From a virus, in IMG/VR virus record IMGVR_UViG_3300023184_000434, positions 1-27,756 of that record: a stretch of DNA of 27,756 nt. One strand, written 5' to 3'. Positions 17,421 to 23,282 of the stretch are shown here, piece by piece (the first letter of the stretch is position 1; each line of letters starts with the position of its first letter). Below the pieces are notes generated by a model. That model was not told the DNA's origin and searched no databases. It saw only the letters and a program-made list of their open reading frames with translations. The translations under genes and the position numbers were made by a program.

Positions 17421-17836
17421 CACCATTTGACTACCTAAACGCTATCAATCAATCAAAAGAAAACATGATGGTTGGTACCGACAATGATGAACTTGCAGAA
17501 AAATCGTACAATCCATATATCGTTAATAAAGGACTATCTTACTTTCCAGACACAATCCTATATTCAAATGAAATGAATATGCGTCATTTCTTAGACAATA
17601 AACCACAGTTTTTGTATTTACTAAATACCATCAGGCCTAAAAAAAGGTTCAGTAAATGGTTTAAGAATGAAGTGGTAGAGGATATTAATGTGATTTCAGA
17701 ATATTTTGGCTATAGTTACGCTAAAGCTAAACAAGTACAGAATCTCATAACCTCAGACCAACTTAAAATCATGCGACAAAAACTAGAAAAAGGTGGATTG
17801 AAGTCTAAGGAGAAAAAGAATGGCGGTGAACATTGA
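17417..17836 (+). CDS. 62: Clamp loader small subunit, gp62-like
   Basis: Assigned by position between 44 and regA and by residues shared with gp62, notably NPYIVNKGLSYFPDTILYSN (residues 32-51), NMRHFLDN and RFSKWF. It forms the clamp loader with gp44 and has no ATPase motifs of its own. At 139 residues it is shorter than T4 gp62 (187), as in many marine T4-like phages. It starts in an ATGA overlap with gene 44, and its last 17 bases overlap regA, implying tightly coupled synthesis. The C-terminus is lysine-rich. Confidence 0.88.
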   Translation: MTPFDYLNAINQSKENMMVGTDNDELAEKSYNPYIVNKGLSYFPDTILYSNEMNMRHFLDNKPQFLYLLNTIRPKKRFSKWFKNEVVEDINVISEYFGYSYAKAKQVQNLITSDQLKIMRQKLEKGGLKSKEKKNGGEH

Positions 17837-18227
17837 AGACTTACTTGAAGTAAGATTAAAACAAGAAGACGATTTTCTTAAAGTAAAAGAAACACTAACC
17901 CGTATTGGAGTTGCATCTCGCAAAGATAAAACGTTATATCAATCGTGTCATATTTTACATAAAAAAGGTAAATATTATATTGTACATTTTAAAGAGTTGT
18001 TTGCATTAGATGGCAAACCAACTGATTTTGAAGAGAATGATTTAGCAAGACGCAACACAATAGCAAAATTGCTAGCCGAATGGGGACTCATTGAGGTTAT
18101 AAATAAACCTACAAATGTAGAACAACCAATTGCACCACTATCGCAAATCAAAATTATTTCTTTTAAAGAAAAAGATGATTGGATGTTAACTGCAAAATAT
18201 AACATCGGAAGCAAAAAAAGGGACTAA
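17820..18227 (+). CDS. regA: RegA translational repressor
   Basis: RNA-binding protein that represses translation of early genes by binding near their start codons. Identity is strong: DFLKVKETLTRIGVA (residues 18-32), LYQSCHILHKKGKYYIVHF (39-57) and EWGLIEV (87-93) match T4 RegA closely. At 135 residues it is a little longer than T4 RegA (122), with about ten extra N-terminal residues. AAGGAG at 17807-17812 supports the chosen ATG, which lies inside gene 62. Candidate targets in this window include the clamp and clamp-loader start regions, as in T4. In T4 gene 43 follows directly, but here about 2.5 kb intervene. Confidence 0.96.
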   Translation: MAVNIEDLLEVRLKQEDDFLKVKETLTRIGVASRKDKTLYQSCHILHKKGKYYIVHFKELFALDGKPTDFEENDLARRNTIAKLLAEWGLIEVINKPTNVEQPIAPLSQIKIISFKEKDDWMLTAKYNIGSKKRD

Positions 18228-18228
18228 A

Positions 18229-18666
18229 ATGGAAGAACTAGTACAATCATTAAAAGTGGTTTTAGCAAATCACTATGCATTTTATTTAAAAACGCATTAT
18301 TATCATTGGAACGTAACCGGTCCTAATTTTCCTCAGTATCATGGTTTCTTAGAAAACATTTATACTGAAGTCTATGATGTTGTGGATAAAATTGCTGAAG
18401 AGATTCGTGCATTAGATGCATATGCACCAGGAAGTTTTAATCGTTTTATTCAACTATCACAAATTCAAGGTGACGAAACTGTGCCACCAGCAGAAGTGAT
18501 GTTGCAGAGATTGTTAGATGACATTCCAGTAATGTTGACAAGTATTGAACGTGCATATGAATTGGCAGAACAAAATCACGCACACCATTTGAGCAACTTC
18601 ATGGCTGAACGTCAAGATGCATTTGGTAAACACGCATGGATGATTAAGTCAACGTTAAAGGCTTGA
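18229..18666 (+). CDS. dps: Dps/ferritin-like iron-storage and DNA-protection protein
   Basis: A Dps-family four-helix protein that oxidises and stores iron with peroxide and protects DNA. The intersubunit ferroxidase residues are all in place: His26 in HYYHWNVTG, His38 and Glu42 in YHGFLE, and Asp53 and Glu57 in VDKIAEEIR. At 145 residues it lacks the lysine-rich N-terminal tail that E. coli Dps uses to bind DNA, so direct DNA binding is uncertain. It starts one base after regA, with AAGGGA at 18218-18223, so it is transcribed with the clamp-loader operon. Its TGA stop is part of the next promoter. It may protect replicating DNA or capture iron for the phage's iron enzymes; both are inference. 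Confidence 0.92.
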   Translation: MEELVQSLKVVLANHYAFYLKTHYYHWNVTGPNFPQYHGFLENIYTEVYDVVDKIAEEIRALDAYAPGSFNRFIQLSQIQGDETVPPAEVMLQRLLDDIPVMLTSIERAYELAEQNHAHHLSNFMAERQDAFGKHAWMIKSTLKA

Positions 18667-18691
18667 CAAACGTTAATATATATGAGATAAT
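18663..18691 (+). promoter_or_regulatory. Sigma-70 promoter overlapping the dps stop codon
   Basis: A perfect TTGACA (18663-18668) includes the dps TGA stop. GATAAT (18686-18691) follows after 17 bases. The -10 sits inside an 18-base palindrome, suggesting repressor control. Confidence 0.78.
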
Positions 18692-19211: not shown

Positions 19212-19219
19212 TATAAATA
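19212..19219 (+). promoter_or_regulatory. T4-type late promoter box TATAAATA
   Basis: An exact match to the T4 late promoter consensus TATAAATA, just after the HTH stop codon. It is the only exact copy I noticed in the window. It would start transcription near 19225, giving a roughly 150-base leader before the phasin-like and hsp20 genes. Late transcription in T4 needs gp55, gp33 and the gp45 clamp encoded upstream. Confidence 0.65.
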
Positions 19220-19224
19220 AACGT

Positions 19225-19351
19225 ATCTCAGGGATGGGAACGTAAACGGCTCTTCTACCTTAGGAGCGTCTGGCTGGCACAACGATATGGTGCCCCTGTA
19301 TTCAGTAAGCAGGATTAATGATACGCCTTCGGGGTATCGAATTTTATTTTT
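19225..19351 (+). ncRNA. Putative structured RNA or long structured leader
   Basis: This gap is visibly richer in G and C than its AT-rich surroundings and holds nested pairings. A closing stem pairs CAGGG (19229-19233) with CCCTG (19294-19298). A hairpin pairs ACG(G)CTC (19246-19252) with GAGCGT (19264-19269). A second hairpin pairs GCAC (19277-19280) with GTGC (19290-19293). The terminator-like hairpin with a TTCG tetraloop follows. No ORF of useful length exists here, and it has no tRNA features. It could be a free small RNA or a cis-regulatory leader of the downstream genes. I do not recognise a known family. Confidence 0.4.
19320..19351 (+). terminator. Terminator-like hairpin with TTCG tetraloop
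   Basis: GATAC (19320-19324), one bulged G, and CC (19326-19327) pair with GG and GTATC (19332-19338) around a C(TTCG)G tetraloop, one of the most stable known. After GAA comes TTTTATTTTT (19342-19351). If functional, transcripts from the late promoter would partly stop before the phasin-like gene. Confidence 0.5.
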
Positions 19352-19374
19352 AACTCGCTTAATAGGAGAAAACT

Positions 19375-19602
19375 ATGTTACAAAACATCAATACAGCAAT
19401 TGATACATTTCAAGGCGCAAAAAAGCAATTCGTCAAAACATTCGTTAAGAATGAAGAACTTGCAAAACCCCTCAATACTTTCGTTGATGCACAAACTTCT
19501 TATGCAAAAACTGTAGCCGAAGAAGCCAATAAGTTTTTTACAACTTTGGGCATGTCTTTGTATACGTTTGATGCTAAGAAAGCATTTTCAACATCTAAGT
19601 AA
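19375..19602 (+). CDS. Small helical protein, possibly phasin-like (75 aa)
   Basis: ATG 19375 follows GGAGAA with good spacing. The 75-residue product is almost wholly helical and amphipathic, with phenylalanines at regular intervals: AIDTFQGAKKQFVKTF, then FVDAQTSYAKTVAEEANKFF. This looks like the short helical repeat of phasins, proteins that coat polyhydroxyalkanoate granules in proteobacteria, but the similarity is by eye and weak. Alternatives are a small structural or chaperone partner, since the next gene is Hsp20. The structured leader upstream suggests regulated expression. Confidence 0.65.
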   Translation: MLQNINTAIDTFQGAKKQFVKTFVKNEELAKPLNTFVDAQTSYAKTVAEEANKFFTTLGMSLYTFDAKKAFSTSK

Positions 19603-19614
19603 GAGGAGATAAAC

Positions 19615-20127
19615 ATGGGACACACACCATTACCCGCAGTCTTTGGCGGTGCAGGATTCAAAGACTTTGATAAATTCTTTGTTGGTTTCGATGACCAATT
19701 CAATCGTCTAGCAAAGATACATGATGATGTAACTAAAAACATTCCAAACTACCCACCTTACAACATTCGCAAGACTAGTGACAACACTTATGTCATTGAA
19801 ATTGCTGTTGCTGGTTTCGGTAAACAAGAAATCGATATCACACTAGAAGATAATAAACTTATTGTTTCTGGTAATACAAAAGATGATAACGACAATTTCT
19901 TGTTCAAGGGAATCGCTAATCGTGCATTCACTCGCACGTTTGCATTGGATGACCAAATCGAAATTCAAGATGCCGCTTTGATTAATGGTATGTTGAAGAT
20001 TGCTTTGGAACGAATCATTCCAGAACACAAGAAGCCTAAGAAGATTGAAGTTAAGGACACAGTTGATACTGAGCCTAAGACTAAAAAATCATCTAAGCAA
20101 TACTTGACTGAGGATGACTCACTATGA
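19615..20127 (+). CDS. hsp20: Hsp20 small heat-shock protein
   Basis: An alpha-crystallin-type chaperone that holds unfolding proteins. The domain spans about residues 46-140, with YPPYNIRKTSDNTYVIEIAV, GFGKQEIDITLEDNKLIVSG and a final NGMLKIALERIIPE strand. It most resembles the IbpA class, ending in PEHKKPKKIEV. A hydrophilic tail rich in Lys, Thr and Asp follows. Hsp20 genes are common in T4-like cyanophages and are thought to help scaffold or tail proteins. Strong AGAGGAGA site before ATG 19615. The stop overlaps the next gene (ATGA). Expression from the late box at 19212 would fit a role in virion assembly. Confidence 0.94.
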   Translation: MGHTPLPAVFGGAGFKDFDKFFVGFDDQFNRLAKIHDDVTKNIPNYPPYNIRKTSDNTYVIEIAVAGFGKQEIDITLEDNKLIVSGNTKDDNDNFLFKGIANRAFTRTFALDDQIEIQDAALINGMLKIALERIIPEHKKPKKIEVKDTVDTEPKTKKSSKQYLTEDDSL

Positions 20128-20443: not shown

Positions 20444-20450
20444 ACACCGA

Positions 20451-20472
20451 GGGGGCGCAATGCCCCCTTTTT
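20451..20472 (+). terminator. Intrinsic terminator ending the hsp20 segment
   Basis: GGGGGC (20451-20456) and GCCCCC (20462-20467) form a perfect 6-bp GC stem with loop GCAAT, followed by five T (20468-20472). It separates the stress cassette from the DNA polymerase unit. Confidence 0.92.
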
Positions 20473-20487
20473 ATTATAGGATATAAA

Positions 20488-20790
20488 ATGGCAAACTTAA
20501 GAATTTTAAAATTGACAACGAATGAAGAAATTGTTGGTGACATTGTAGAAGAAACTCCAGAAAAATATCGTATTGAAAATCCATGCATTCTTGGAATTGC
20601 AATGGGTCCAAATGGTAAAGCAAGTCTACAAATGCAACCAATGCTTCTGTTTTCAGAGCAAAAAGTTGTAGAACTTAAACCAGAACACGTTTTATACAAC
20701 GTTTCAGTTGCAATTGAGATCAAAAACAAGTATAATGAGATTTATGGTTCGGGTATTGTCGTTCCGCCACAACAATCTATTATTATTTGA
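20488..20790 (+). CDS. Unknown small protein with Sm-like beta pattern (100 aa)
   Basis: The ATG at 20488 follows an AGGATA site. The sequence LRILKLTTNEEIVGDIVEET, then KYRIENPCIL (residues 4-35) is the strongly bent beta-strand pattern of Sm/Lsm-like barrels, in which a gene product reads TGEEIIGxV. The remainder is also strand-rich. Similar proteins precede or neighbour replication genes in related phages as far as I recall. It could bind RNA or be purely structural. The stop TGA shares a base with the polymerase start (TGATG), so it is coupled to gene 43 and may regulate it. Confidence 0.7.
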   Translation: MANLRILKLTTNEEIVGDIVEETPEKYRIENPCILGIAMGPNGKASLQMQPMLLFSEQKVVELKPEHVLYNVSVAIEIKNKYNEIYGSGIVVPPQQSIII

Positions 20791-23282
20791 TGAAATTTTA
20801 CACACACTTCTCTAAACTTGGTAATCATATTCTTGTCCGTGGATATAACAACGGCAAGAAATTTATTGATAAAGTTGAGTACAATCCAACTCTATATTTA
20901 CCATCTAAAGATGGTGAGTATAGAACATTGGATGGTCAACCAGTTGCGCCTGTGTCACAAGGCACAATGCGTGATGCTATGGAGTTTATGAAACGTTATG
21001 AAGACGTTGATAACTTTAAAGTATATGGCTCAACAAACTTTCCCTACGTTTATATTAATGAAGCCTATCCAGGCAAAGTAGATTATGATCCGCAACAAAT
21101 TAAAATTGCAAATATTGACATTGAGGTTGGTTCTGAAAATGGTTTTCCTGAACCTGCATCTGCGAGTGAGCCAATTACTGCCATCACGTTTAAGATAGCA
21201 GGACACTTTTATGTGTTTGGTTGTGGCGACTTCAATAACTATCGTGATGATGTAACATACATTATGTGCCGTGATGAGAATAATCTTATCATGCGTTTCC
21301 TTGACATGTGGGAATCAACATCACCAGACATTGTGACTGGTTGGAACATTCAATTCTTTGATATTCCATATCTGCACAATCGCATCAATAAACTCATGGG
21401 CGAGAGTACTGCAAAACGTTTATCTCCATTCCGTAGAATTGGCGAACGTACAACTACAATTCATAACAAACAACAAACAGCATTTGACTTGGTAGGTATT
21501 GCTATTCTTGATTACATTGAATTGTACAAGAAGTTTACTTACTCACAACAAGAAAGTTTTAGTCTTAATCACATTGCGTTCCTTGAACTCGGTGAAAAGA
21601 AACTTGATTACTCTGAAGTCGAAAGTCTACATCAGTTGTACCGAACAAACTTTCAAAAGTTTATTGAGTATAACATCCATGACGTTGAACTTGTGGACCG
21701 TATTGATGCTAAGATGCAATTGATTGACATGGCACTTGCACTTGCATATGATGCTAAAGTTAATTACACCGATGTGTTCACGCAAGTACGTATGTGGGAT
21801 ACTTTGATTCACAACGAATTGATTGCAGACAATATTGTTGTGCCTCAAAATGTTCATACTGCAAAAGATGAACAGTATGCTGGCGCTTATGTGAAAGACC
21901 CAATCGTTGGTATGCACGAATGGGTTGTGTCGTTTGACTTGAACTCATTGTATCCACACTTAATTATGCAGTACAATGTTTCACCTGAAACAATTGTTGA
22001 AGGTCGCCATACAAGCGTCAGCATTGATGGTCTTTTGAGTGGTGACTATGAAGCGTCTACTCAATATTGTATGGCAGCCAATGGACACTATTTCAAGCGT
22101 GACAAGCAAGGCTTCTTGCCTGCTATGATGCAACGCATGTATGATGATCGGTCATTGTACAAAAAGAAAATGATTGAGTCTCAAAAGGCTTACGAAAAAG
22201 AAACAGACAAAGAACGTAAACGTGAAATAACAAATCAAATTTCAAAGTACAAGAATTTGCAACTTGCAAAGAAAGTGCAATTGAACTCCGCTTATGGCGC
22301 ACTTGGTAATCAATATTTTAGGTTCTTTGATATTCGACAAGCAGAGGCAATTACTCTGTCCGGTCAGTTGTCCATTCGATGGATTGAAATGAAGTTGAAT
22401 GGTTACCTAAACAAACTATTGAAAACTAAAGAGGTCGATTATGTTATCGCATCGGATACAGATTCTGTATACGTCAATCTTGGTCCGCTGGTACATATGG
22501 TCTACGGACAAAAGAGTGAAACGAAAGTTGAAACGATTGTTGATTTCGTCAACAAAGCGTGTATCGAAAAATTCGAACCATTCATCGACAAGTCATACCA
22601 AGAACTAGCAGACTACATGAATGCATTCGACCAGAAGATGCAGATGAAGCGTGAAGTCATTGCAAACAAAGGCATTTGGACTGCAAAGAAGCGATACATT
22701 CTAAACGTATATGACTCTGAAGGCGTTCGTTTCGCAGAGCCAAAGTTGAAGATGATGGGCATTGAAGCAGTTAAGTCTTCCACTCCTATGTCGTGTCGTG
22801 AGAAGATTAAAGAATCTTTGAAGATTGTGATGAATGGCAATGAACAAGAGTTCCAATCTTTCGTTGAAGCATTCAAACAAGAATTCAAAACTCTTCCATT
22901 TGAAGACATTGCATTTCCACGTGGTGTTAGTGACCTATCTAAATATATGGGTAGTACGGAACTATATTCAAAAGGCACACCTATGCATGTGCGTGGTGCG
23001 ATCATGTTTAATGCGTTTCTGAAAAAGTATAAACTGACTAAGAAGTATCAACTTATTCAAGATGGCGACAAGACTAAATTCTGTTACATGAAAGTTCCGA
23101 ATCCGATTCAAGAAAATGTATTTTCTATTTTAACTGTTTTGCCTAAAGAGTTTGGTGTAGAAAAATATATCGACTACGACACACAGTTTGATAAAGCATA
23201 TCTTGAACCATTAAAAACAATCGTAAACACAATCGGTTGGAAGACTGAACGTGTTTCTTCATTGGAGGGTTTTTTCGCATGA
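20790..23282 (+). CDS. 43: Family B DNA polymerase, gp43-like
   Basis: Replicative polymerase with a 3'-5' proofreading domain. Exonuclease residues: Exo I NIDIEV (Asp110, Glu112), Exo II NIQFFDIPYL (Asp191), Exo III YNIHDVELV (Asp298). Polymerase motifs: motif A SFDLNSLYPHL (Asp383), motif B KVQLNSAYGALGNQ (495-508), motif C IASDTDSVY with DTD at 556-558. All catalytic residues are present. At 830 residues it is shorter than T4 gp43 (898), as in cyanophages. The start is ATG 20790, overlapping the upstream stop by one base, with no visible ribosome binding site. Translation therefore probably depends on the small Sm-like gene, a likely control point. The stop overlaps the next gene (ATGA). 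Confidence 0.97.
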   Translation: MKFYTHFSKLGNHILVRGYNNGKKFIDKVEYNPTLYLPSKDGEYRTLDGQPVAPVSQGTMRDAMEFMKRYEDVDNFKVYGSTNFPYVYINEAYPGKVDYDPQQIKIANIDIEVGSENGFPEPASASEPITAITFKIAGHFYVFGCGDFNNYRDDVTYIMCRDENNLIMRFLDMWESTSPDIVTGWNIQFFDIPYLHNRINKLMGESTAKRLSPFRRIGERTTTIHNKQQTAFDLVGIAILDYIELYKKFTYSQQESFSLNHIAFLELGEKKLDYSEVESLHQLYRTNFQKFIEYNIHDVELVDRIDAKMQLIDMALALAYDAKVNYTDVFTQVRMWDTLIHNELIADNIVVPQNVHTAKDEQYAGAYVKDPIVGMHEWVVSFDLNSLYPHLIMQYNVSPETIVEGRHTSVSIDGLLSGDYEASTQYCMAANGHYFKRDKQGFLPAMMQRMYDDRSLYKKKMIESQKAYEKETDKERKREITNQISKYKNLQLAKKVQLNSAYGALGNQYFRFFDIRQAEAITLSGQLSIRWIEMKLNGYLNKLLKTKEVDYVIASDTDSVYVNLGPLVHMVYGQKSETKVETIVDFVNKACIEKFEPFIDKSYQELADYMNAFDQKMQMKREVIANKGIWTAKKRYILNVYDSEGVRFAEPKLKMMGIEAVKSSTPMSCREKIKESLKIVMNGNEQEFQSFVEAFKQEFKTLPFEDIAFPRGVSDLSKYMGSTELYSKGTPMHVRGAIMFNAFLKKYKLTKKYQLIQDGDKTKFCYMKVPNPIQENVFSILTVLPKEFGVEKYIDYDTQFDKAYLEPLKTIVNTIGWKTERVSSLEGFFA

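Follow-up and report, generated by a model that had tools for sequence, protein, structure and literature searches.

The gap that opens at position 19,212 of the window (the whole stretch of DNA analysed, a linear virus contig of 27,756 bases, IMGVR_UViG_3300023184_000434, from a freshwater T4-type virus of bacteria) holds a conserved, covarying structured RNA that follows a late promoter of T4 type, and the most plausible reading of this RNA is as the 5′ leader of a small-protein/hsp20 operon. Three modules make up this leader: a 5′ hairpin (D0), a short form of a central RNA domain (D2) and a ROSE-like module, in which a conserved helix sequesters the SD, and the leader is associated with hsp20 and the small-protein gene. 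With somewhat better than even confidence, it is interpreted as a late-mRNA leader in which a ROSE-like thermometer controls a small helical protein and Hsp20; the leader probably hides the ribosome-binding site until warmed. The element is described here as a phage ROSE-like leader combined with D2, an RNA domain of phages that appears to be new.

The T4 replication cluster gp45-gp44-gp62-regA ... gp43 is present in the window, the gp45 homologue included, and the leader occupies a gap between regA (17820-18227, plus strand; RegA translational repressor, PF01818, E = 2.9e-45) and gp43 (20787-23282, plus strand; a gp43-type DNA polymerase with ~54% identity to Synechococcus phage gp43). On the 5′ side it is flanked by two genes, one ferritin/Dps-like and one of the HTH_39 type, and its 3′ neighbours are the first gene of the operon, encoding a 75-aa helical protein (19375-19602, plus strand), and the gene of the small heat-shock protein Hsp20 (19615-20127, plus strand; PF00011, E = 2.5e-17; phrog_432, E = 8e-44). 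The 75-aa protein, though conserved beside hsp20, gave nothing above noise in Pfam or PHROGs, and the label 'phasin-like' given to it in a preliminary description of this DNA is unsupported by either collection; the leader which that description placed ahead of the 'phasin-like' and hsp20 genes was borne out as a conserved, covarying RNA. Cyanophage hsp20 lies in the same regA-gp43 interval, with the order regA-hsp20 in S-PM2, S-SM2 and others, and hsp20 belongs to the core genes of the T4-like cyanophages (PMC3037559). Elsewhere in the window, a strong match to a sigma-70-type promoter (18663-18691; TTGACA-17-GATAAT, extended -10) overlaps the end of the Dps-like gene and is followed by a gene whose product is lysine-rich and begins like a signal peptide, and an intrinsic terminator far better than the candidate in the leader (20449-20469; a 9-pair, G+C-rich stem and a T-run) is located 3′ of hsp20 and 5′ of gp43. 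In related phages, tRNA genes occur in dense arrays near the hsp20 leader (L147, L173, L201, L206).

Homologous gaps were collected via their flanking proteins only, yielding 42 distinct sequences, in which the promoter box TATAAATA was kept in 42/42, the D0 sequence GGGATGGG in 41/42 and the central domain D2 in 38/42; the bulged-G hairpin and the motif CUCGCUU..AGGAG were each found in all 42. A consensus structure of 28 homologues was supported, with 92.5% of cells paired compared with 88.2 ± 0.4 in shuffled alignments, six pairs with double changes and a covariation score of 0.202 (0.118 shuffled; reached in 0 of 500 shuffles). The single-sequence fold of the gap was no better than that of shuffled sequences (z = -1.29). 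Covariation among homologous gaps, which the preliminary description had named as a check, was found, in a structure other than the one it had proposed: its long-range stem (19229-19233 with 19294-19298) showed pairing in 87.1% of cells, with not one pair changed on both sides. That stem was discarded; it also competes with the helix 19295-19298/19310-19313, and the equivalent of this helix in the long form of D2 covaries. The second suggested check, a search of Rfam at curated thresholds, returned no family, and ARAGORN returned no tRNA or tmRNA in the gap, in agreement with the preliminary description, which had recognised neither a tRNA nor a common riboswitch. No DNA similarity to the gap was found among named phages. 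The functional unit extends beyond 19351, as far as the SD at 19364-19368.

The late promoter box TATAAATA (19212-19219, plus strand) is an exact match at the start of the gap, as had been noted previously, and lies upstream of a late gene. The same octamer occurs twice in the window, where 1.9 occurrences are expected by chance, and its likeness to a T4 late promoter is known here from the sequence: the box is exact and the genome is of T4 type, with gp45, gp44 and gp62. By analogy with T4 late promoters, late RNA polymerase would start ~6 nt 3′ of the box, near 19225 and just upstream of D0. The hairpin D0 (19226-19239, plus strand; UCUC-AGGGAU-GGGA, with the GGGAU loop) is weakly supported as a stem, with 77.5% of cells paired and changes that are mostly one-sided, and its loop is GGGAU-conserved to near invariance. 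The hexaloop consensus of CsrA/RsmE binding sites is ANGGAN, which the loop of the window, C-AGGGAU-G, fits, and the hairpin could be imagined as the binding site of a CsrA/Rsm-type translational regulator that the leader titrates or by which it is controlled. However, other lineages carry CGGGAU, which is not ANGGAN; this explanation is considered very improbable.

The 3′ module consists of two hairpins and was analysed using alignment A5, as the SD was misaligned in alignment A4 owing to loop length. Hairpin I (19320-19338, plus strand; GAUAC-G(bulge)-CC-UUCG-GG-GUAUC) has the general form N5-G(bulge)-CC-loop-GG-N5′ with strong covariation, comprising three pairs with double changes in the 28-homologue structure and five in the set including cyanophages. 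Hairpin II (19354-19368, plus strand; CUC-G(bulge)-CU-UAAU-AG-GAG) pairs the anti-SD (19354-19359) with the SD AGGAG (19364-19368) around a bulged G at 19357. For the two-hairpin structure, 98.1% of cells were paired and the covariation score was 0.432 compared with 0.112 in shuffled alignments (0/500). The SD helix itself is largely invariant, its covariation being confined to G-U variants and two lineages, in which compensatory changes replace CUC/GAG with GUC/GAC (S-CAM4) and AUC/GAU (HTVC104P) around an invariant bulged G. The same two hairpins were located directly 5′ of hsp20 in 17/17 database phages (P-SSM2, Syn1, S-PM2 and 14 others), comprising 16 cyanophages and one pelagiphage, the podovirus HTVC104P.

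Hairpin I had been described as a terminator-like hairpin with a TTCG tetraloop. The UUCG hairpin and a T-rich stretch 3′ of it are indeed present in the window, and five or more T among 8 bases follow the hairpin in 91/121 freshwater modules, as would be expected if a transcription attenuator stopped most transcripts to release a discrete RNA of ~120 nt while the rest read through into hsp20. The reading as a terminator is weakened, however, by the GAA that separates the stem from the T-run, by a terminator scan that did not list the hairpin, by the AT-richness of these genomes and by the database phages, all 17 of which keep the hairpin without a U-run, there beside the hsp20 start codon. 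As hairpin I of the two-hairpin module before hsp20 the structure is conserved, and it does not present the immediate, conserved U-tract that accompanies the stable hairpin of an intrinsic terminator. Attenuation is considered a distinctly improbable account, though it may occur in part in the freshwater modules with a U-rich stretch.

The signature of ROSE thermometers is a UYGCU/AGGA pairing around a bulged G, and hairpin II pairs the SD in this manner. The other features of ROSE elements are likewise found here: a 5′ UTR position immediately before a small heat-shock gene or its operon, a stable 5′ hairpin preceding the SD hairpin, and an SD paired with a UYGCU anti-SD, with the bulged G and two compensatory changes. 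To our knowledge, the Rfam ROSE_3 model was built without these phage sequences. In searches with this model, ROSE_3 was the top and full-length match to the module of L168 (E = 0.012), Syn1 (0.0072) and L298 (0.11), and its best match in the whole contig was the leader in G019 (8e-5), G020 (5e-4), G015 (7e-4), Syn1 (0.003) and P-SSM2 (0.08). All scores were under the gathering threshold (25.3 bits at best, against 43) and the window itself gave no match to ROSE_3; therefore, the module is termed 'ROSE-like' and is not filed in RF02523. By its presumed working principle the leader is a ROSE-like thermometer, and by the Rfam threshold it is no member of ROSE_3.

A model of the phage module (R2) was built from 12 sequences with the window left out and matches the window at 19318-19368, hairpin I included, with E = 1.2e-9. 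The same model, unprompted, found a second copy in contig G008 before a small-protein gene ~74 kb from hsp20; this module was read in locus L398 (73057-73109, minus strand). Against 143 gammaproteobacterial genomes, the phage model gave weak matches only, without clear heat-shock genes. Among 860 SD-bearing starts, 66 ORF starts carried UYGCU..AGGA, comprising 63 of Hsp20 and 3 of other genes; before a start codon the motif is otherwise rare in these phages. The loci of this analysis were gathered partly by pattern, so that counts from them are not free of bias. The ROSE signature, the best matches of ROSE_3, the matches of R2, the rarity of UYGCU..AGGA and the two-hairpin precedent of the short ROSE-like thermometers of Pseudomonas ibpA, in which a stable first hairpin is followed by a melting second one (PMC3669281), together suggest a thermometer.

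Like ROSE_3 (RF02523), ROSE_2 (RF01832) and the Pseudomonas ibpA element, the phage module is situated in the 5′ UTR of a small heat-shock gene and combines a stable hairpin I with an SD hairpin II and a bulged G; hairpin I shares the ROSE_3 core GAUGCC...GGGUC, whereas hairpin II is shorter and weaker than the ROSE_3 consensus (-2.5 compared with -7.8 kcal/mol). Unlike the known ROSE elements, it is phage-borne, stands behind a T4-type late promoter with extra RNA modules upstream, and is also found 5′ of a small-protein gene away from hsp20. The thermometer of cyanobacterial hsp17 (PMC4477652) likewise occupies the 5′ UTR of a gene for a small heat-shock protein, in hosts of some such phages, and is described as one hairpin bearing a 1x3 internal bulge, in contrast to the two hairpins and ROSE signature of the phage element.

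The SD hairpin could be real and yet not sense temperature, either holding translation at a constant low level or yielding to a protein or to a different stretch of RNA, for instance if GAGCG of D2 paired with CGCUU and freed the SD. RNAalifold proposes this GAGCG/CGCUU pairing in both alignments, and the computed melting is shallow: in ViennaRNA, hairpin II of the window stays mostly closed even at 42 °C (P unpaired 0.14), a calculation that is non-discriminating, as ROSE consensus hairpins are also predicted to be mostly closed at this temperature. However, GGCGUCC is just as well conserved where D2 lies remote from hsp20 leaders and is therefore not kept for anti-SD pairing; the GAGCG/anti-SD pairing was rejected as the reason for the conservation, since isolated D2 has the same bases. 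Both the bulged G and the association with hsp20 are in keeping with thermometers, and a non-thermal clamp is judged rather unlikely.

In the proposed thermometer mechanism, D0 and D2 would fold at the 5′ end of the late transcript, and hairpin I would then fold stably. In the cold, the anti-SD CUCGCU of hairpin II would pair with the SD AGGAG around the bulged G, giving poor ribosome binding; by analogy with ROSE-like thermometers, this weak, AU-rich hairpin would open on warming or proteotoxic heat and allow better ribosome binding. The small protein and Hsp20 would be produced when misfolding threatens virion assembly, and a capsid scaffolding function has been suggested for phage Hsp20 (PMC3037559). 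D2 would be co-transcribed with the thermometer here as a separate domain.

In the window, D2 is present in its short form (19248-19313, plus strand), with the helices 19249-19252/19264-19267, 19276-19280/19290-19294 and 19295-19298/19310-19313, of which the third has double changes in three pairs. The long form (~94 nt, alignment A3) has six helices including a pseudoknot, with 98.0% of cells paired, 10 double-change pairs and a covariation score of 0.428, compared with 0.132 in shuffled alignments (0/500) and at most 0.052 in slid controls. Searched with the long-form model R1, short-form relatives of the window score E = 8.7e-5, 1.5e-4 and 2.6e-3, and D2 had no match among the Rfam 15 curated covariance models. 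It is, like the Melnitz phage glutamine riboswitch (PMC9004378), a structured cis RNA of T4-type aquatic phages, from which it differs in sequence and structure. In a strict pattern search of 84,980 bacterial genomes, a single match was obtained, inside a Thiofilum coding gene, and was taken as chance.

Each contig having D2 (up to 364 kb) contains one strong match to its model, second matches being marginal only. In G021, G024 and G028 it lies 40-50 kb from hsp20, which still has the late promoter box and the ROSE-like module, and eleven D2 contigs, which may be fragments, are without hsp20. These isolated copies begin with, or right behind, a stop codon (consensus TAAGAACCCACCTTAGG), and in many cases the next late promoter adjoins them; examples are L281 3376-3469 (minus strand), L293 4819-4911 (plus strand), L294 40-131 (plus strand) and L356-L369, and the genes upstream of them vary (nuclease-like, RegA and others). 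Stop-codon read-through by D2 was considered and rejected, as in-frame stops follow (e.g. L285, L362). As D2 is found far from hsp20 in several phages, it is an independent RNA domain with its own role and not an hsp20-specific sensor. The 5′ hairpin and D2 might even form the principal functional unit, a phage RNA in its own right (trans-acting, protein-binding, riboswitch-like or self-cleaving) that merely shares the promoter of hsp20, for which the covarying, pseudoknotted structure, the single strong copy per contig at such distances from hsp20 and the frequent position between a stop codon and a late promoter all argue. However, among the relatives of the window D2 is always in the hsp20 leader and shortened, the contigs apparently lacking hsp20 may be incomplete, several phages have the ROSE-like module without D2, and D2 has no known ligand, partner or cleavage. 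This alternative is held at well below even confidence, and it and the thermometer reading are not mutually exclusive. A more specific proposal is more tentative still: that D2 represents a novel phage RNA class, pseudoknotted and trans-acting, catalytic or ligand-binding, present as a single copy per genome in many aquatic T4-type phages and moved between gene 3′ ends and the hsp20 leader, where it was joined to a phage ROSE-like thermometer.

Scans for D0 and the central domain revealed modular leaders across relatives, in which D0 is followed by an optional H-type pseudoknot, an optional D2 and then the ROSE-like module. The stems of the pseudoknot are hypervariable yet complementary in 17/17 leaders having it, with a mean score for all 21 candidates of 12.2 compared with 3.1 for shuffled sequences. 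Such pseudoknots were seen directly 3′ of the 5′ hairpin in L147, L163, L168, L184, L204 and L263, with wholly different stem sequences between phages, and more optional RNA modules, e.g. ACGGCGGAT...ATCCGTTCTTC, were noted between pseudoknot and D2 in L269, L272, L324 and L312. The 113-nt gap of L047 has one perfect hairpin, AAGCGTCAG...CTGACGCTT, instead of the 5′ hairpin and D2 and retains the promoter and the ROSE-like module. The upstream part (5′ hairpin/D2) is missing in most cyanophages examined; from this and the plain hairpin of L047, part of the role of the upstream modules may be the generic one of giving the mRNA a structured 5′ end.

No report of a phage hsp20 thermometer was found in a literature search that fell short of covering all literature. 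D2 is a well-defined, covarying, single-copy phage RNA that is now searchable and testable. If the thermometer reading is true, the ROSE-like SD hairpin before hsp20 in every cyanophage examined would mean that RNA thermometers are carried by viruses that are among the most abundant on Earth, and a phage chaperone would be tied to water temperature or heat stress.
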